A DNA stretch of 64,000 nucleotides, taken from Pseudotamlana haliotis (lineage in GTDB: Bacteria > Bacteroidota > Bacteroidia > Flavobacteriales > Flavobacteriaceae). The translations under genes and the position numbers were made by a program. Under the pieces are notes generated by a model. That model did no database searches. It saw nothing but the letters and a program-made list of their open reading frames with translations, and was not told the DNA's origin. Location of the stretch: contig NZ_WAAT01000004.1 in NCBI RefSeq assembly GCF_008806375.1, positions 215 through 64,214 of the forward strand, in the 5' to 3' direction. This document shows positions 32,252-48,016 of the stretch, one piece after another (the stretch's first letter is position 1; the number at the start of each line of letters is the position of its first letter).

Positions 32252-33184
32252 TTAAACAAAATATCCTAATATCCGTACAAACGGAATGGCTATTAAGGGC
32301 AAAGCAATAAACACCAACATGTAAAAGATAGAAGCTTTTGTAATTTGATTTTCTTTAGTAGACTGAATATAGCCTAAGGCTGCTAATATAATAGCAAACC
32401 CATAAACTGTTGCAATAGGGTAAGTAGTGATTATAAATGCAATAAGAAAAACATTTCTGTATTTTGAGAGTGAAAATTTACTAGGTAAACAAAATGAAAT
32501 GGCAATCATCCCTTCAATAAAAATTGTCCAATAAGATATAATGAGTCCGATTGTTTTTAAATTTTCAACCCCATTTAATTTAAACGAAAAAGTGGTGTTA
32601 TTTGTATTTAGTAAATGATCAATATTTGCAGCATTTTCAAGGAGTAGGGTAGGGTTAACTCCTGCAACATAGGAGGTGAAACCAAAAAACCTTGGATCGG
32701 TTGTATTTGTGAATTCAAAAAAACCACCGTTTAAAAATTCTGGTGCTAAAAACTTACCAATTACGGCAAATAAAAAACACAAGCCTATAATATATTTGGC
32801 CTGATCCCTGAGCTTTGATAGGATTTCATCTTCTTTAAAAAAGAAAAACAATAAGCATATAGAAACTAACACATAAGCGTAGATATGCTTATGGTTTGGT
32901 ACATAACCATCTAAATCAAAGATTAAATATGGAAATGCACTAATCAAAGCCATGATCAGCCAAAAAAATTTGTTTAATAGTACCTTTTGGAATAACAATG
33001 CTGGTACAATGATAACGGGCATAAAAATACCCAGAACAGCGTTATCATTCATTTTCAAAAGCATAATTAACAGAATCATTTTTAATATTAATATTAATGA
33101 TGATTGTTCGTTTAAGGTATGTTTTTGAGAAGAACGATATAAAAAATCTATAAAATTTCTGTTAGTGGTTATTGTTTTCAACAT
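32252..33184 (-). CDS. Multi-pass membrane protein of unknown function
   Basis: This 310-residue protein has about eight to nine hydrophobic segments. It includes a conserved-looking luminal part, FLAPEFLNGGFFEFTNTTDP, and FGFTSYVAGVNP. Its organisation recalls HTTM/vitamin-K-carboxylase-like membrane proteins, which often travel with DCC thioredoxin-like proteins, and such a gene is two places upstream. I cannot confirm family membership, because I do not see the carboxylase motifs. It overlaps the end of the next upstream gene (33162-33650) by 23 bp, so the two are translationally coupled. Confidence 0.7.
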   Translation of the reverse strand: MLKTITTNRNFIDFLYRSSQKHTLNEQSSLILILKMILLIMLLKMNDNAVLGIFMPVIIVPALLFQKVLLNKFFWLIMALISAFPYLIFDLDGYVPNHKHIYAYVLVSICLLFFFFKEDEILSKLRDQAKYIIGLCFLFAVIGKFLAPEFLNGGFFEFTNTTDPRFFGFTSYVAGVNPTLLLENAANIDHLLNTNNTTFSFKLNGVENLKTIGLIISYWTIFIEGMIAISFCLPSKFSLSKYRNVFLIAFIITTYPIATVYGFAIILAALGYIQSTKENQITKASIFYMLVFIALPLIAIPFVRILGYFV

Positions 33185-33650
33185 GGTTAATGCGGTTTAG
33201 TTGTATCATATCACTTTCTCTGTTGTAGTCAATTCGGTATACTTCCATATCAACAATGTTTTCTGGATTCACAGGTTCAGTACATATCGTATTATCGTAA
33301 ATAGTGGTTGGCTCTTTAAACATAATTTTATCGGCTTCAGCGTTGTAACACCAATCAAACTTTTTAAGTTGTTCTATAAATTCTGTTAAACGTTCATCAT
33401 TGGGCATGATTCTACTTTCAACATAAATATCTTCTAATGTTTTAATATCTCTTAGGTTTACAAAATACACCTTGTTGTTATGCTTAATATTTATACCTGA
33501 AACGCGATAAAGCATTTTATCAATTTTACCAAACATTCTCATGCCACCTCCCATCCAGCTATCTAGGTGATCGGTTTCAACAAGAATCAAGTTTCTAACA
33601 AAAAAGAATAGCATGATGCACGGGATAGCGTATTTTATATATTTTTTCAT
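33162..33650 (-). CDS. Membrane-anchored protein of unknown function
   Basis: This 162-residue protein has one N-terminal hydrophobic segment (about 5-24) and a soluble domain with mixed charge. It contains LDSWMGGGMRMFGKIDK, a glycine/methionine-rich motif, and two cysteines (CYNAEAD and TICTEP). I do not recognise a family. It is coupled to both neighbours: it overlaps the downstream multi-pass gene by 23 bp and stands 12 bp after the DCC-type gene. The trio probably works together. Confidence 0.65.
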   Translation of the reverse strand: MKKYIKYAIPCIMLFFFVRNLILVETDHLDSWMGGGMRMFGKIDKMLYRVSGINIKHNNKVYFVNLRDIKTLEDIYVESRIMPNDERLTEFIEQLKKFDWCYNAEADKIMFKEPTTIYDNTICTEPVNPENIVDMEVYRIDYNRESDMIQLNRINHVENNNH

Positions 33651-33662
33651 AATTAATTTAGA

Positions 33663-34070
33663 TTATATAAACTGTTTGCGTTCGTTTTCCGTTGGAATTC
33701 TACAAGTGCTTTTTTTTCCGAAGAACACATAGCGATTCTTAGCAATAAAGCTGTATAATCCGTCACGAATAAATTCAGGAATAATCATCAATACTTTAGC
33801 AAAAATGGCATAGCTAGGTGAAAGTTTTGAAAAAACTCTTAAAACTGCTGATGATTTAGTGTATAATGTATTATTTGTGTAAAAATAAATTGTTGAAAAA
33901 TCAGAAGTATTCTCCTGTATGAACTCGTCTTTTAATGTAGATTTAGCAAAATCAGACTGTAGTGTTGCGTAATAAATTGTACCGTTTTTATCTCGACTTA
34001 TTACAAAATTTATAAACCCATTACAAAGGTTACAAACACCATCAAAAAATACTATGTTTTCTTTTTTCAT
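33663..34070 (-). CDS. DCC1-like thiol-disulfide oxidoreductase family protein
   Basis: This 135-residue protein starts MKKENIVFFDGVCNLCNGF, the DxxCxxC-type motif that defines the DCC family (thioredoxin-like DUF393). The C-terminal half has a hydrophobic helix and ends NRYVFFGKKSTCRIPTENER. Family members have been linked to membrane-bound HTTM-type partners. Its ATG shares a base with the stop of the upstream GT2 gene (TAATG), indicating coupling to the polysaccharide operon. Its substrate or partner is not evident. Confidence 0.85.
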   Translation of the reverse strand: MKKENIVFFDGVCNLCNGFINFVISRDKNGTIYYATLQSDFAKSTLKDEFIQENTSDFSTIYFYTNNTLYTKSSAVLRVFSKLSPSYAIFAKVLMIIPEFIRDGLYSFIAKNRYVFFGKKSTCRIPTENERKQFI

Positions 34071-40562: not shown

Positions 40563-41531
40563 TTATTTAATAATAAATGCTTTACATTTTTCCTTTAGAG
40601 GTTCAGCTAACTCATGATGTAAACCTAAATTGGTAACCATGGTGTCTTTAGTGATTTTACCTTTCCATCCAAAGTTGTTTGTAAAAGAACCATCATCAGC
40701 AATATCAATACGATTGAACAAATCTATGATACCGTTAAATCTACAAGTGTCTACAAAGGTGTTAAATGAATTTAGAAATATTACAGGTGTCCCCATTGCT
40801 AGGCACGGTAGTGCACAATGAATTCGAGATGTTATGACTAATTTTGCTTTTGCGTATTTTTTTAAGCAATCTTCGGCATATTCAAATTTTTCTTCATCGG
40901 TTTGCTTACCAATTGGGAGTATTTGAGTCACATATTTTGCGTCTTCTAGTAAATCCTTGTCAATTACTTTCTTTAGTTGCTTTTGAATGCGGTTTAGCTG
41001 AAAGGCATCTCCTTTTAAAATGCCTTTAACTAAATCTTTTGTAGATTTAAACAATTTGTCTGTAGTAGGATAATTGTAAAACGGATCTACAATATAAACA
41101 TCATCACCTCTTAATGCGTCATCTACCTTATAGTTATCTAATGTAAGTGTTAAGCAACCGGTGAAATAAGCTTCGATTCCTTTATCTTTTAAAATTTTAA
41201 CTGTGTATTTGTCTCTACAACCAATAGGGGCATGGGTCTTTAAATAAGCGATGCCTTCTTCTGTTAGCATAAAAGGGGCAGCGGTAGAATTCATATGAAA
41301 AGAAACAAAAAGCGGATCTATTTGTTTAGCAGGAATCCAATGATGAATATTGTGAGTAAACCAACCATTCATAATTAATTTAACGTCATTACCGTTGTAT
41401 TCTTCCAATTTTTCTCGGTTCATGAATACATCGGTTTGTGGTAAAAATTGTTTTGCAGCTAAGCTTTGAACATAATCGCCAACATTGTATTTTTCTTTAC
41501 CTTCTTCGTAAGTTAGTAGTCCGTATTTCAT
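40563..41531 (-). CDS. Polysaccharide pyruvyl transferase family protein
   Basis: This 322-residue protein begins MKYGLLTYEEGKEKYNVGDYVQSLAAKQFLP, the start of the PS_pyruv_trans domain. It has APIGCRDKYTVKILKDKGI, YFTGCLTLTL and, near the C-terminus, LVITSRIHCALPCLAMGTPVIFL (conserved SRIH histidine). It probably adds a ketal-linked pyruvate from phosphoenolpyruvate to a sugar hydroxyl. Its ATG shares a base with the stop of the PP-loop gene upstream (TAATG), so the two are translationally coupled. Confidence 0.93.
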   Translation of the reverse strand: MKYGLLTYEEGKEKYNVGDYVQSLAAKQFLPQTDVFMNREKLEEYNGNDVKLIMNGWFTHNIHHWIPAKQIDPLFVSFHMNSTAAPFMLTEEGIAYLKTHAPIGCRDKYTVKILKDKGIEAYFTGCLTLTLDNYKVDDALRGDDVYIVDPFYNYPTTDKLFKSTKDLVKGILKGDAFQLNRIQKQLKKVIDKDLLEDAKYVTQILPIGKQTDEEKFEYAEDCLKKYAKAKLVITSRIHCALPCLAMGTPVIFLNSFNTFVDTCRFNGIIDLFNRIDIADDGSFTNNFGWKGKITKDTMVTNLGLHHELAEPLKEKCKAFIIK

Positions 41532-42808
41532 TATAATGATTTTATTTTTTGGTACACCTTGTATAGGTTAGGGAATTTATTTCTAAGTATATATTTACGT
41601 TTTTTATTTTCCTGAACCGTTTGTTGATTCTTATTAACAATCTCATCTAAATTCAAATTGATAAATTTTTCGATAGCTTTTTTTTCAGCATCTTCATCTT
41701 TTAGTACATAAAAACTATCAACACTTTTTGCTTTATCCTGAATGCATTGCCATTGGTATTTAATCCCTTCAGTCATGATACAATCATCTCCAAAGTTGTA
41801 AAATATTAAGTCATAAAAATTATCAGGTAAATCAAAACCATAATCTTTTGGATTAGCGCCAGACAAGATTAAACTTAGGGCTGTACGTTGACACTTATGA
41901 CAAGTATTACAATTTGCACCTTCACGTTCATCGGCATAACAAACACGTAGTGTGATGTTTTTTTTGTTTTTCTCTACAAATTGAACAACATGGTCTGTTT
42001 TATCAGTCCTTTTAAATTGAAAACCCTCATGGGTGACTTTAGTGTTGGCCCATTTCATGTTTTCATCAATATAAGGGGAGGAGCCCCAACTGTATTTTAT
42101 CTCATGTGTAGCAGAAGCTGCGATATTAATATCGGTAATTCCGAAGATAAAAGATACTGGTCCTAAAACACCTATTAATGCCATGCCATGTTGTACAGCA
42201 CCCCACCAACCTAGGTGATCAACTAACAAATCTACTTTATAAGTGTAGAATTCACGTAAGTTAGATTCAATATAGTGTAATCGTGATGCTTTAAGTACCT
42301 CTTCAGAATTGTTAAAGCTCTTAAAGGCATTCCAACGTTTAGTATCATTAATTTCTACATCAGCACCATGAATAGAAAATAAGTATGGATTTTTATGAAA
42401 ATGTCTCGTCAGAGAGTCATAAGAATCTAGACCCCCACTAAATAACAAGGAAGTTTCGTTACCCTGAATGGTATTTTTTATTTTCTTATTGAAATGAAGT
42501 TCACCAGAAATTGTTTTTTCCGGATGATATTTTTGGAACTGTTCTTTCAATTTCAATAATGAATTATAAAAGGTTTCATCAATTTCATCAATAAAAACAT
42601 CAAAACCTACAAACCAAGAGATAGGCATGATATTGGCTAAAAACGGAATGACCGCGATGCTATGTGGCGTATTTTCAATACTCTTATCATAGCATACATA
42701 ATAAGGGTTTTTGGAATTGAAATATTCTGAAATTCCTTTGGAAACTTCATAATCGTAAGAGATTTTTGTGTTTCCTTCTTCAAATGATATATCTTTAAGT
42801 TTTACCAT
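41531..42808 (-). CDS. QueC-like PP-loop ATP pyrophosphatase family protein, function unknown
   Basis: This 425-residue protein has a PP-loop in LLFSGGLDSYDSLTRHF (SGGLDS at 124-129) and a cysteine cluster C290-x9-C300-x2-C303-x2-C306 (EREGANCNTCHKCQRT). QueC, the 7-cyano-7-deazaguanine synthase, has the same order of motifs. Here about 115 residues without a known motif precede the PP-loop, and about 120 residues follow the zinc cluster, including a basic C-terminus. PP-loop enzymes adenylate a carboxylate or carbonyl to attach nitrogen or sulfur. Its location between wzx and a pyruvyl transferase, within an acidic-polysaccharide locus, suggests modification of a polysaccharide precursor, for example amidation of a uronic acid. 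That is inference. It overlaps wzx by 7 bp and the next gene by 1 bp. Confidence 0.7.
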   Translation of the reverse strand: MVKLKDISFEEGNTKISYDYEVSKGISEYFNSKNPYYVCYDKSIENTPHSIAVIPFLANIMPISWFVGFDVFIDEIDETFYNSLLKLKEQFQKYHPEKTISGELHFNKKIKNTIQGNETSLLFSGGLDSYDSLTRHFHKNPYLFSIHGADVEINDTKRWNAFKSFNNSEEVLKASRLHYIESNLREFYTYKVDLLVDHLGWWGAVQHGMALIGVLGPVSFIFGITDINIAASATHEIKYSWGSSPYIDENMKWANTKVTHEGFQFKRTDKTDHVVQFVEKNKKNITLRVCYADEREGANCNTCHKCQRTALSLILSGANPKDYGFDLPDNFYDLIFYNFGDDCIMTEGIKYQWQCIQDKAKSVDSFYVLKDEDAEKKAIEKFINLNLDEIVNKNQQTVQENKKRKYILRNKFPNLYKVYQKIKSL

Positions 42809-44334
42809 TTTAATTTCATTTTATTAAGGAAAGGATTTAAAGCATCCTTGAAGAGTTGTTTTTCAAAACCAATAATACCTAAGTTATAAATCACAACAAA
42901 ATATACTAACGAGTAACAGGTTGCTTTTGTGACAAAATTAATCCAGCCTTCGCCAGGTATAAAAGTTATGATATAACCTAAAGCAGAAACGAATAAAAGG
43001 GCGGGTAATGTCTTGTTAAATAGTTCTTTAAAGAATCTTGGTATGTTTAGACCGATAACGTTATTGTAATAGAAATTCATAACATTTTGAACGATGATCC
43101 ACCCAGAAAGTGAACCTATAATCATACCTAAAGCCCCATAAGATCTTGCTAAATAAGCTCCTAATACAGCCCCTGTTATTAGAAATACTAAATATATAAT
43201 AGCTTTAAAAGCTAGTTTGTTTTTGGCTTCTAAAATTGAATTTCCAAAACCTTGAATTAATGGTAAAGTATAAGCGATCATGATTAATAAGCCAATTAAC
43301 CAAACTTCACGGCTTGCAGTAGGACCGAGCTCACCACCAACCCAAAGTAATACGAATTGATAACCAAATAAGGAGAAAGCGCCCAAAATATACATAAGGA
43401 TAATAAAGGATATCCGACCAATTTTAATCATCATGGAGGTGAGTTCTTCGGTGGAGGCATTACCTACGGTCATTTTTGTTGCTCTAGGCAAGAACACGCT
43501 AGAAATGGCTGATGAAAATGCACCATAGTAAGTCCCTAGCATAATTCCTATACCATAAATTGTTAGGACTTCAGGAACAGAAATTCTACCTAAAATCCAG
43601 TGCCCAACCTTCCATTGAATAATGCCAACAAAAGAGAATACAAAAATCCAGATGGAATAACCAAAAATTTCTTTAAGGTATTTGGCTGAAAATTCATGAA
43701 GTTTAATACGAACATTCAACTTAAAAAAAACATAATAAGCATTGATAGCAATTATTATGATATTAAAAATAGTATCTATAATGACCAAAGAAATGGCTTT
43801 TCCTCCTAAGAGCAGTACACCAACAACAACCAAACTTCTTAATATATAGCGTATAATTTGAATTGTTTTTGGAAAAACAAAGGACTCATAACCATAGCAT
43901 ATTCCATTAAAAGTGTTACCTGGTAAGCTTATAGCCAAATTAAAAATAAGTAATGCGAAAATGGTTTTAGCAACAGATATCTCTTCAGAAGTCATTTTGG
44001 TGAAATAGCTATCAATTTGCCCATAAAATGCTAGTCCTGAAATTATAATGATTGAAGAAATTAACCCGTAAATAATTAATGTAATGGCAAGGAAATTTTC
44101 TTCTTTCTCTTTGTCATCTTCGGCTTTATATTTAGCAACAAACCTAATAGTTGTATTATTAAGTCCTAAATCTAGGATGGAAATTGTGCCAACTAAAGCA
44201 CCAATTGTGGTATATATACCATATTCTTCTTTTCCAATATGACTCAAAATAAAAGGAGTAAGAAACAGTCCAACTGCATTTGTCAGAAAAATGATGATAT
44301 AATTTAATGCAGCTCCTTTTTTTAGTTGACTCAA
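42802..44334 (-). CDS. Wzx-type lipid-linked repeat-unit flippase
   Basis: This 510-residue polytopic protein has 12-14 hydrophobic segments of the MATE/polysaccharide-transporter type. It begins LKKGAALNYIIIFLTNAVGLFLTPFILSHIGKEEYGIY, the usual first block of Wzx proteins (about 4-41), and TTIGALVGTISILDLGL follows. It is expected to flip the undecaprenyl-linked repeat unit to the periplasm, where the EpsG-like polymerase acts. It lies 30 bp from the tviB-like gene and overlaps the PP-loop gene by 7 bp. Confidence 0.93.
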   Translation of the reverse strand: MSQLKKGAALNYIIIFLTNAVGLFLTPFILSHIGKEEYGIYTTIGALVGTISILDLGLNNTTIRFVAKYKAEDDKEKEENFLAITLIIYGLISSIIIISGLAFYGQIDSYFTKMTSEEISVAKTIFALLIFNLAISLPGNTFNGICYGYESFVFPKTIQIIRYILRSLVVVGVLLLGGKAISLVIIDTIFNIIIIAINAYYVFFKLNVRIKLHEFSAKYLKEIFGYSIWIFVFSFVGIIQWKVGHWILGRISVPEVLTIYGIGIMLGTYYGAFSSAISSVFLPRATKMTVGNASTEELTSMMIKIGRISFIILMYILGAFSLFGYQFVLLWVGGELGPTASREVWLIGLLIMIAYTLPLIQGFGNSILEAKNKLAFKAIIYLVFLITGAVLGAYLARSYGALGMIIGSLSGWIIVQNVMNFYYNNVIGLNIPRFFKELFNKTLPALLFVSALGYIITFIPGEGWINFVTKATCYSLVYFVVIYNLGIIGFEKQLFKDALNPFLNKMKLKW

Positions 44335-44364: not shown

Positions 44365-45645
44365 TTATAATCTACCATCTACTTTATCCTTTAAAATCCC
44401 TTTTACATCATAGAGTACCCCATCTTTATTGATTAAAGTGTTTAAATCTTTATTCAAGAACTCTTTATGAGCAACGGTTAACACTACGGCATCAAAATTA
44501 TTTGATGGTAATTCTTGCGTTGTTTTTAGTCCGTATTCATGATATACTTCCTCTGGGTTAGCCCAAGGATCATAAATGGTAATATCTGTTCCGTAACTAT
44601 TTAATTGTTTTATAACATCTACAACTCTAGTGTTTCTAACATCCGGACAGTTTTCTTTAAATGTGATTCCAAGAATAAGAATCTTTGAATTTTTAATTCG
44701 AATATCTTTTTGAACCATGAGTTTGACAACTTCAGAAGCCACATATTGGCCCATGCTGTCATTCACACGTCTTCCTGCTAAAATAATTTCAGGGTGGTAC
44801 CCAACTTCTTGGGCTTTTTGTGCCAGATAATAAGGGTCAACCCCTATACAATGTCCTCCAACTAATCCTGGTTTAAAAGGCAAGAAATTCCATTTTGTTC
44901 CAGCTGCTTCTAAAACCGAATTGGTATCAATATTCATTAAGTTGAATATTTTAGCCAATTCATTAACAAAAGCGATATTGATATCACGCTGCGAATTTTC
45001 AATAACTTTAGCAGCTTCGGCTACTTTGATAGTAGGAGCGAGGTGAGTTCCAGCAGTAATGACACTTGCATAAAGTCCATCTACTTTTTTACCAATTTCT
45101 GGAGTAGAACCTGCCGTTACTTTTAAAATTTTATCTACTGTGTGCAGTTTATCCCCAGGATTAATACGCTCTGGGGAATAACCTGCATAAAAATCTTTAT
45201 TAAATTTTAAACCACTAATTTTTTCAAGTACAGGAACGCACTCATCCTCTGTTACTCCAGGGTAAACCGTTGATTCATATATAACGATATCGCCTTTTTT
45301 TAGTACTTGAGCAACAGTTTCACTAGATTTATAAAGTGGTGTTAAATCTGGTCTGTTGTTTTTGTCAATAGGTGTTGGCACCGTGATAATATAATAATTG
45401 CAAGTTTTAAGGTCGTCCAAATTAGCTGTGAAATACAACCCGTTCTCATCGTTAAAATCTGTTTTTAAAACAGATTTTAACGTATCAGAATCTACTTCTA
45501 AAGTAAAGTCATTTCCTTGAGAAAGTTCATCAATACGGTTTTGGTTGATATCAAAACCAACGACGTCGTATTTAGTGGCAAATAAGCGAGCTAGTGGTAA
45601 GCCAACATAGCCTAAGCCAATAATTGCAATTTTATCTTTATTCAT
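44365..45645 (-). CDS. tviB: UDP-N-acetylhexosamine 6-dehydrogenase (TviB/WbpO type)
   Basis: This 426-residue protein has the dinucleotide motif IAIIGLGYVGLPLARLF (about 7-23), the family signature YSPERINPGDKLH (about 152-164) and the catalytic cysteine in PGLVGGHCIGVDPYYLA (about 257-273). The match to the Vi-antigen TviB class is close along the whole length. It oxidises UDP-GlcNAc to UDP-GlcNAcA (or UDP-GalNAc to UDP-GalNAcA) with two NAD+. The TviC-like epimerase is two genes upstream, so together they would supply a GalNAcA-type residue. Confidence 0.92.
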   Translation of the reverse strand: MNKDKIAIIGLGYVGLPLARLFATKYDVVGFDINQNRIDELSQGNDFTLEVDSDTLKSVLKTDFNDENGLYFTANLDDLKTCNYYIITVPTPIDKNNRPDLTPLYKSSETVAQVLKKGDIVIYESTVYPGVTEDECVPVLEKISGLKFNKDFYAGYSPERINPGDKLHTVDKILKVTAGSTPEIGKKVDGLYASVITAGTHLAPTIKVAEAAKVIENSQRDINIAFVNELAKIFNLMNIDTNSVLEAAGTKWNFLPFKPGLVGGHCIGVDPYYLAQKAQEVGYHPEIILAGRRVNDSMGQYVASEVVKLMVQKDIRIKNSKILILGITFKENCPDVRNTRVVDVIKQLNSYGTDITIYDPWANPEEVYHEYGLKTTQELPSNNFDAVVLTVAHKEFLNKDLNTLINKDGVLYDVKGILKDKVDGRL

Positions 45646-45648
45646 ATT

Positions 45649-47028
45649 TTAACTTCCTATTGAATAATATTCGAAACCAATTTTATTCATTTCAGACTTG
45701 TCTAAAATGTTTCTTCCATCAAAAATGAAAGCTGGTTTCTTCATTTGTTTGTAAATCTTTTCCCAGTCATAAGATTTAAACTCATCCCATTCAGTCATTA
45801 TAGCTACAGCATGTGCATCATCTAAGGCCTCATAAGGAGAATCTGTAGATTGTAGGAGCGCTTTGTTTTCTTCAGGAGAACGGGTGTTTAAATAGTTTAA
45901 ATCTGATTGAACTTTTTCTTCAGAAACTTTTGGATCATAAACTGTAATTTCAGCTTGTTCGTTTAGCAAGTGATCGGCAACGTAAATGGCTGCAGACTCC
46001 CTAGTATCATTGGTATCTTTTTTAAAGGCCCAACCAAGCAAGGCTATTTTCTTTCCAGATACCGTATTGTAAAGTGTTTTAATTAGGTGATCAGAGAAAC
46101 GTCTCTTTTGGTGATCATTTAAAATAATAACCTGTTCCCAATAGTCGGCAACTTCATGTAGTCCATAACTTCTCGCGATATAAACGAGGTTTAAAATATC
46201 TTTCTGAAAACAAGAACCACCAAAACCAATTGAAGCCTGTAAAAATTTAGGTCCGATTCTAGAATCCATTCCAATGGCTTTAGCGACTTCATTTACATCA
46301 GCTTCAGTATGTTCACACAATTCAGAAATCGCATTTATAGAAGACACTCTTTGCGCTAGGAAAGCATTCGCTGTTAGTTTTGATAATTCTGAAGACCAAA
46401 CATTGGTTCTTAAAATTCTATCTTGAGGTACCCAGCTTCCGTAAATGTTAGCTAAACCATCAATAGCCTCTTCTGAATCTCCTCCAATCAAAACGCGATC
46501 AGGGTTTAGTAAATCTTGAACCGCGGTACCTTCAGCTAAAAATTCTGGGTTTGATAAGATGTCAAAATTAACACCACTACCTGTATTACTTAAAATACTT
46601 TTTATAGCTTGAGCAGTTCTTACCGGAAGCGTAGATTTCTCAACAACAATTTTATCTGTTTTTGCAACTTTTGCGATGTTTCTAGCACATAGTTCTACAT
46701 ATTTTAAATCAGCAGCCATACCTTTTCCCTTACCGTAGGTTTTAGTAGGGGTATTTACAGATATGAAGATCATTTCCGACTCATCAATAGCCTTATCTAT
46801 TTCAGTAGAGAAGAAAAGATTTTTCCCTCTGGTTTCTCCAACAATTTCAGCTAGTCCTGGTTCATAGATTGGTAGTTTTGATACATCAGTATCATTCCAA
46901 GCAGCTATTCGAGCTTCATTAATGTCTACAATCGTCACTTTAATGTTCGGATTTTTTTTAGCAATTACTGCCATTGTAGGTCCGCCAACATATCCAGCTC
47001 CAATGCAACAAATTTTGTTTATTTTCAT
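45649..47028 (-). CDS. ugd: UDP-glucose 6-dehydrogenase, eukaryote-like (UGDH) type
   Basis: This 459-residue protein begins [20 protein letters not shown] and contains [21 protein letters not shown]-like sequence ([20 protein letters not shown]), [12 protein letters not shown] and the catalytic block [17 protein letters not shown]. These are the hallmarks of the animal/plant UGDH branch rather than the shorter bacterial Ugd. It oxidises UDP-glucose to UDP-glucuronic acid. The predicted GlcA 4-epimerase at 48167-49195 could convert that to UDP-GalA. It is 3 bp from tviB. Confidence 0.94.
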
Positions 47029-47032
47029 GTTA

Positions 47033-48016
47033 CTATAGGTTTTTCCAATACCATTTTATAGCTTCTTTAATGCCTTCATCGATATTGAATTTGGGGTTGT
47101 ATTTTAATAATTGTTTTGCTTTCTCAACCGAGGCAAGCGAGTGGGGAATATCTCCAACTCTGTTTTCTCGGTGTTTTATATCTACATCATCAATAGATTT
47201 GTCATAATTAGACAAATGTTTTTTCAATAATGTTGTTAATTCTAAAAGGGTAGTTCTGTCACCATAAGCAACATTATATACTGTATTTAATGCTTCTTCA
47301 TTAGTTGTAGTAATTGCAAGAATATTCATTTGAACGACGTTGTCTATGTAGGTAAAATCTCTAGAATAACTTCCATCCCCGTTAATAATAGGTGATTCGT
47401 TTTTAATAAATTGTTTTACAAATAGAGGAATAACAGCAGCATAAGCGCCGTTTGGGTCTTGTCTTCTTCCAAATACATTAAAATAACGCAAACCAATAGT
47501 ATCTAAGCCATAGGTTTTTTGAAAAATATCAGCATATAATTCATTTACATATTTGGTAATGGCATAAGGAGAAAGCGGTTTACCAATCACATCTTCTACT
47601 TTAGGTAAAGCTTCGTGGTCACCGTATGTAGAAGAGCTAGCAGCATATACGAAACGTTTAACTTTGGCATCACGAGCAGCAACAAGCATATTTAAAAAAC
47701 CAGAAACATTGACGTCGTTTGTGGTTATAGGGTCATTTATTGACCTTGGCACAGATCCTAAAGCGGCTTGGTGCAAAACATAGTCTACATTTTCACAAGC
47801 TTTATGGCAATCTTCAACCTTTCGAATATCACCCTTAATTAATGTGAATAGTTTATTATCTAAGAAAGCGGTAATGTTTTCTTTTTTTCCGGTAGAAAAA
47901 TTATCTAAGCAAACAGTTTTGATTCCGTTAAAGAGTAGTTCTTCACAAAGATTAGATCCAATAAATCCAGCTCCACCTGTAACTAATACAGTTTTATTTT
48001 GTAGATTTTTAAACAT
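47033..48016 (-). CDS. tviC: UDP-N-acetylhexosamine(uronate) 4-epimerase (TviC/WbpP type)
   Basis: This 327-residue SDR has [20 protein letters not shown] (about 9-28), the [17 protein letters not shown] block, [10 protein letters not shown] and the catalytic [12 protein letters not shown] (Tyr and Lys around 149-153). The pattern is that of TviC/WbpP, which interconvert GlcNAc/GalNAc forms at C4. It is 4 bp from ugd and in the same run as tviB. I infer it makes the GalNAc(A) form. Confidence 0.9.

Follow-up and report, generated by a model that had tools for sequence, protein, structure and literature searches.

The window analysed here, a 64,000-nucleotide stretch of the Pseudotamlana haliotis genome, encodes a PP-loop protein that represents a real, conserved and unnamed enzyme family. 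FAM is the name used below for the protein at window 41531..42808 and for its family. On the basis of its predicted structure and the defining tests applied, FAM is a QueC-superfamily enzyme with a QatC-like architecture and is not QueC, QatC or Cap9. The gene lies in a polysaccharide locus beside a gene for a PF04230 pyruvyl transferase, and on balance we favour the view that FAM is a carboxylate-activating, glycan-tailoring enzyme that works with this transferase.

Gene and locus

FAM is encoded on the minus strand, the plus strand at 41531-42808 being full of stops (Table 1); an earlier sequence-only reading had named no strand. The run wzx - FAM - PF04230 has overlapping ends: FAM shares 7 nt with wzx and 1 nt (TAATG) with the gene for PF04230. 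Sugar-nucleotide genes of the TviB, TuaD and TviC types are found upstream of FAM, and glycosyltransferases, an MBOAT acyltransferase and an EpsG-type protein are encoded downstream. The coupling to wzx and a pyruvyl transferase claimed by the sequence-only reading is borne out by these overlaps and by a conserved association of FAM with Wzx and PF04230, and genes that fit the uronic acid synthesis it assumed are present, for nucleotide-sugar dehydrogenases and epimerases.

Table 1. Positions of FAM, its domains and motifs, and neighbouring genes in the window.
Feature	Position	Strand	Basis and remarks
FAM gene	41531..42808	minus	425 aa; ORF and translation; 56+ aligned relatives; AF2 model
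FAM N-terminal domain	42464..42808	minus	residues 1-115, b-b-b-a-b-a-b; W65, D77, F80 near invariant
QueC/QatC-like ATP-pyrophosphatase (PP-loop) domain	41834..42463	minus	residues 116-325; match to QueC 2pg3, Cap9
PP-loop SGGLDS	42422..42439	minus	residues 124-129; S124, G126, D128 conserved
Cys cluster C290-x9-C300-x2-C303-x2-C306	41891..41941	minus	predicted zinc site; invariant in 56 relatives and 16 distant ones
FAM C-terminal helical extension	41534..41833	minus	residues 326-425; secondary structure of AF2 model
Polysaccharide pyruvyl transferase PF04230 (partner)	40563..41531	minus	322 aa; Pfam E 4.5e-19, 69.9 bits vs cut-off 25.3
Wzx-type flippase	42802..44334	minus	PF01943 E 7e-14; overlaps FAM start by 7 nt
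TviB-like nucleotide sugar dehydrogenase (UDP-HexNAcA)	44365..45645	minus	NCBIfam NF011729 E 1e-166, just under cut-off
UDP-glucose dehydrogenase-like (TuaD-like)	45649..47028	minus	TIGR03026 over cut-off; TuaD model E 3e-107, under cut-off
TviC-like UDP-HexNAcA C4-epimerase	47033..48016	minus	NCBIfam NF011728 E 9e-123, under cut-off

The PF04230 gene of the window is the only copy found in the P. haliotis genome (G000). Its product keeps the Arg (GCRDK) and the R-x-H (SRIH) of the PEP-site motifs, which by motif reading correspond to R148, R306 and H308, residues that matter in CsaB mutagenesis (PMC10435577). Because these residues are kept, the partner is probably a real pyruvyl transferase.

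Apart from the question of FAM itself, no queuosine gene was found in the window (contig C71), so the absence of other queuosine or preQ0 genes asserted by the sequence-only reading holds for the window. Elsewhere in the genome, QueD-type (PTPS family) genes lie on contigs C68 and C30 and a QueE gene on contig C76. In a set of 60 relatives, which includes G001-G059, QueC (PF06508, E 1e-8) is absent from 59. QueD-type and QueE genes are present in the nine Flavobacteriaceae that were checked.

Sequence motifs and predicted structure

At 425 aa, FAM is almost twice as long as QueC (about 222 aa), as had been claimed, and the PP-loop SGGLDS at 124-129 and the C-x9-C-x2-C-x2-C cluster at 290-306 lie exactly where they had been placed. 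Among 56 aligned members 22 positions are invariant in total, including S124, G126, D128, R267, K270, C290, N299, C300, C303, K305 and C306, and these named positions are also shared by almost all of 16 more distant relatives. Conservation across both sets shows that the motifs are not due to chance. With the 16 distant members included, the signature reads SGGxD ... G(A/F)D ... NxR ... WGSxPxxD ... H(D/E)G ... RxxK ... RVC-x(n)-NCxxCEKCxRT. The orthologue from the same genus is 78% identical, with dN 0.17 and saturated dS (3.5), and the protein is thus under purifying selection.

An AlphaFold2 model of FAM built with 56 sequences has a pLDDT of 94.4 and a pTM of 0.92. When the model was compared with the PDB by Foldseek, the sole match with E <0.001 was QatC (4.8e-6). 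VIA-align likewise matched the model to QatC with Z 13.1 over 293 residues (model residues 1-382, both domains), and to QueC 2pg3 with Z 11.3 over 189 residues at 3.5 A (model residues 116-363). Further matches were Cap9 (Z 9.7), LarE (Z 9.6) and the ArtA nitrile synthetase (Z 9.0), so that the fold matches include several carboxylate-activating enzymes. Profile comparison by hhalign gave 90-95% for QatC, the 95% figure extending over 255 columns and reaching into the N-terminal domain, and 76-96% for QueC.

The N-terminal domain folded alone (AF2) has a pLDDT of 95.0. Searched by itself against the PDB it gave no match above Z 4.4, just RNase H-like arrangements, which we do not read as evidence of homology. 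The whole-model alignment to QatC does cover this domain, and in our reading W65...D77xxF80 of FAM corresponds to WxR...DxxFW in real QatC sequences.

Comparison with characterised PP-loop enzymes

QatC, of the qatABCD anti-phage system (PDB 9y02/9y01), has a two-domain architecture with an N-terminal domain, a PP-loop and a four-Cys zinc site; FAM has the same parts, its zinc site being predicted. It also has a C-terminal helical extension (PMC13279940), which the FAM model shares and QueC does not have, so that the predicted fold of FAM, like that of QatC, places N- and C-terminal extensions round a QueC core. The surroundings differ: the QatC operon carries QatA, QatB (MGTS start) and QatD, whereas FAM neighbours Wzx and PF04230, its partner has no N-terminal MG motif, and its Cys cluster has the x9 spacing and reads CEKCxRT.

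With QueC (PF06508, preQ0 synthase) FAM shares the SGGxDS PP-loop, four Cys, an aromatic residue after the first Cys and the order of these elements. The QueC order proposed by the sequence-only reading therefore stands, together with a predicted QueC-like fold and zinc-type Cys order. The QueC zinc motif is C(x)8CxxCxxC and that of FAM is one residue longer; FAM nevertheless has both a PP-loop and a zinc motif of this kind. QueC substrate motifs are YxQxHxxE, VPxRN and YPDC (PMC13329287). All three are absent from the 56-sequence FAM consensus but present in the alignment of real QueC proteins, bar the divergent L148. Linkage to queD/queE, a feature of QueC, is replaced in FAM by polysaccharide genes, and in five host genomes (Psychrobacter, Moraxellaceae, Geothrix, Paenibacillus and Natronorubrum) a true QueC is encoded in addition to FAM. 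The close match to true QueC that would have spoken against a new activity was thus not found.

Cap9, the type IV CBASS deazaguanylase (9nto), has the same core fold as the FAM model, but it is only ~185 aa long, has no extensions, keeps the QueC substrate motifs and is linked to a CD-NTase (PMC13329287). Neither the window locus nor the set of commonest FAM neighbours contains a CD-NTase. N-acetyl sugar amidotransferases of the WbpG type are, like FAM, PP-loop enzymes found in polysaccharide loci; their Cys motif, CxxC(x)6CxC, stands in the reverse order to QueC (PMC13329287), whereas in FAM the Cys residues follow the PP-loop, in QueC order. The comparisons called for by the sequence-only reading thus place FAM closest to QatC, then QueC, and apart from WbpG.

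Annotation and distribution of the family

FAM is a large family for which neither Pfam nor NCBIfam has a model. The best Pfam match to the P. haliotis protein, QueC PF06508, scored 14.3 bits (E 0.03), below the gathering score of 22 bits, and the best PF06508 match among the 56 relatives had E 0.0065. An NCBIfam profile search gave nothing useful and no match to an N-acetyl sugar amidotransferase; the QatC model NF041925 matches 3 of the 56 members (best E 0.053). PADLOC, its QatC model included, returned no match. A sequence search of the PDB gave no true FAM relative, nor did a search of viral contigs. A 2026 survey of PF06508 covers QueC, QatC, Cap9, LarE, WbpG, GMP synthase and a few unassigned clusters, none of them tied to Wzx or a pyruvyl transferase (PMC13329287), and FAM is not on that map. 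In the open-licence literature, no report was found that links a gene of the QueC-like or PP-loop kind to a pyruvyl transferase.

A scan of species genomes found at least 381 relatives, 80 of which were retained. The family extends to haloarchaea, Bacillota, cyanobacteria and proteobacteria, and tblastn against plasmids gave 28 records, with Priestia, haloarchaea, Pseudobutyrivibrio, Gloeothece and Azospirillum as hosts; all those among the matches listed are labelled hypothetical protein. A match was found in 3 of 296 genomes of a phylum sample, a member in 10/369 sampled Gammaproteobacteria, and a close copy in about 4 of 60 near relatives of P. haliotis.

Two FAM copies are adjacent or one gene apart at L006:6584-9188, L066:7001-9702, L083:6920-9452 and L088:6980-11070, which suggests paired or heteromeric paralogues. 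Haloarchaeal loci L085, L086, L091, L092, L094 and L095 and plasmid loci L007, L008 and L012 are without PF04230. The haloarchaeal genes, often plasmid-borne, have among their neighbours type I phosphodiesterase-family genes and genes for conserved membrane-type proteins of ~600 aa, one of which carries the annotation DUF6541.

Coupling of FAM to the PF04230 pyruvyl transferase

In Bacteroidota, PF04230 is encoded on the same strand and <=150 nt from FAM in 52 of 58 loci, with two more convergent. Flavobacteriaceae keep the order Wzx - FAM - PF04230 almost without exception, with variable glycosyltransferases downstream. Among 29 other bacterial loci, PF04230 is on the same strand within 150 nt in ten, fused in one and elsewhere in the locus in five; none was found nearby in the remaining 13 or in any of 13 archaeal loci, and part of the family must therefore work without it. 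FAM-PF04230 adjacency also occurs in Psychrobacter, Moraxellaceae, Geothrix, Opitutae, a cyanobacterium and Azospirillum, where the pair stands alone among unrelated genes. After clustering of FAM at 50% identity, 19/37 bacterial clusters have PF04230 adjacent or fused, and PF04230 is the commonest Pfam family among neighbours of non-flavobacterial FAM (13/89). The junction between the two genes overlaps or abuts in 16 of 62 cases. In a gammaproteobacterial ORF of 754 aa (L134:7663-9924:+), FAM is fused to PF04230 (Pfam E 1e-12). The neighbourhood survey suggested by the sequence-only reading thus reveals a conserved association, and this fusion makes it stronger than that reading could have known.

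The dependence appears to run one way. PF04230 was found in 23/60 relatives and just four of its copies lie beside FAM, whereas FAM, in about 4/60, is always beside PF04230, which argues that FAM depends on its partner and not the reverse. No FAM was found at control PF04230 loci. A tree of the partner has at least four label changes, and the FAM-linked PF04230 proteins do not form one clade, although its long branches call for care; the pairing may therefore have recurred or been lost several times.

A stand-alone FAM member (L134:6494-7594:-) adjoins the fusion on the opposite strand, and at L079:1352-3379:+ and L080:1712-3760:+ a large ORF that includes PF04230 immediately precedes FAM, in one case overlapping it. 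The L079 ORF is a GT2 glycosyltransferase fused to PF04230.

Proposed function

QueC, Cap9 and LarE are ATP-pyrophosphatases that adenylate a carboxylate. As the nearest relatives of the FAM model are ATP-pyrophosphatases, and as the PP-loop, R267/K270 and four Cys are invariant, FAM may well carry out the same adenylation step, with zinc held at the predicted site. The presumed substrate is a surface glycan, on which FAM would act during assembly. The PP-loop would bind ATP, and a sugar, lipid-linked or nucleotide-linked, would attack it through a carboxylate (or carbonyl) to give an acyl-adenylate and pyrophosphate. A nucleophile, either ammonia or another amine and less likely water, would then displace AMP. 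It counts against this mechanism that the neighbours of FAM include no conspicuous glutaminase or amidotransferase as a partner.

FAM and the adjoining transferase would most likely act on the same residue. A pyruvate ketal bears a free carboxylate, and the ketal installed by PF04230 is therefore the simplest candidate for a substrate shared by the two proteins, with a uronic acid carboxylate second. Specific activation of the pyruvate carboxylate by FAM is a tentative proposal. It is equally no better than a possibility that the pair makes an undescribed glycan substituent, an amide or conjugate formed after adenylation of the carboxylate of a pyruvate ketal. The published O-antigen of Cellulophaga fucicola, with neither uronic acid nor pyruvate (PMC3210612), counts against a carboxylate-activating FAM that works with PF04230; this species carries FAM (L045), and the published O-antigen may stem from another locus.

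QueC-type enzymes are known from tRNA and DNA base synthesis and from anti-phage protein modification, and FAM puts the two-domain scaffold in surface-polysaccharide assembly across many phyla, alongside a fixed partner. If the pyruvate-ketal reading is true, two-domain QueC-like enzymes would have a third role, in surface-polymer chemistry, in several bacterial phyla. Activation of a sugar carboxylate would account for a modification step missed by current polysaccharide annotation and would change the predicted polymer charge in hundreds of loci.

The sequence-only reading had suggested amidation of a uronic acid. Here FAM would adenylate the carboxylate of GalNAcA, GlcNAcA or GlcA to give a uronamide or amino-acid amide, without regard to pyruvylation. 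QueC makes an amide first (PMC13329287), marine polysaccharides with amidated GalNAcA are known (PMC3210612), the window encodes TviB-, TviC- and TuaD-like proteins, and 46 of 56 Bacteroidota FAM loci encode a TviB-like dehydrogenase, a TviC-like epimerase and Wzx. However, TviB-like genes are present in 51 of 60 relatives, nearly all of which are without FAM, so the frequency of uronic acid genes in FAM loci is near background, and uronate linkage was dropped as specific evidence. No nucleotide-sugar dehydrogenase family ranks in the top 25 among neighbours of non-flavobacterial FAM, and amidation leaves the PF04230 tie and the fusion unexplained. We therefore regard it as rather unlikely: the idea of a QueC-like enzyme that modifies a polysaccharide is supported, but its uronic acid amidation is not established and is not favoured by gene context. 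A different use of the carboxylate is suggested by MurL, which converts ATP to AMP with a proposed carboxylate adenylation (PMC8788868, PMC5808125). A MurL-like FAM would adenylate a carboxylate to acidify the adjacent C-H, invert that centre (e.g. uronic acid C5) and then hydrolyse the adenylate. MurL acts on a glycopeptide carboxylate, and its PP-loop (GGGKDS) and subsequent C-x15-C-x2-C-x2-C cluster follow the FAM order behind an N-terminal domain of similar length. The hhalign match is weak and inconsistent, 53-87% for a distant FAM subgroup but only 3-6% for the full profile, and the N-terminal domains do not match by profile. MurL is paired with MurD2 and not PF04230; no Mur ligase adjoined FAM in the loci surveyed, while a MurD-like gene does adjoin real MurL. 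FAM is nearer to QatC and QueC than to MurL, and such an epimerase, though a serious alternative, is improbable.

The likeness to QatC, the closest fold to FAM, raises the question of 7-deazaguanine chemistry, in which FAM, like Cap9 and probably QatC, would join CDG to a protein N-terminus or a glycan. CDG may be made in P. haliotis, whose genome has QueD-type and QueE genes and no QueC. Yet QueC is missing from almost all relatives with or without FAM, which makes CDG use unrelated to FAM; the guanine-recognition motifs YxQxHxxE and YPDC are not present in FAM; and partner proteins mostly start MKY, not MG, which ruled out deazaguanylation of the PF04230 partner through an MG start. This chemistry is accordingly most improbable for FAM. 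That FAM is a true QueC, a preQ0 synthase lying by chance in a polysaccharide locus, can hardly be credited. PF06508 is its best Pfam match and the genome has no other clear QueC, but the score is under the cut-off, three QueC motifs are missing, the protein is twice the QueC length and five hosts have their own true QueC. Nor does FAM replace QueC, being found in few relatives although nearly all are without QueC. Carboxylate activation in concert with PF04230 therefore remains our preferred reading.

Further observations

The MurL sequences used were those found in real genomes (85% identity to an approximate query), beside MurD-like genes. Although MurL has been described as without known conserved domains (PMC5808125, PMC8788868), the genes at L149, L154, L155 and L156 have the PP-loop and Cys cluster in QueC order, and MurL itself looks like a PP-loop enzyme.

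The Wzc protein of the window starts MG, and that of relative G020 starts MS. The polysaccharide locus also contains, at window 32252-34070 on the minus strand, a gene for a DCC1-like thiol-disulfide oxidoreductase; the two genes next to it belong to no clear family, and one of them is membrane-protein-like.
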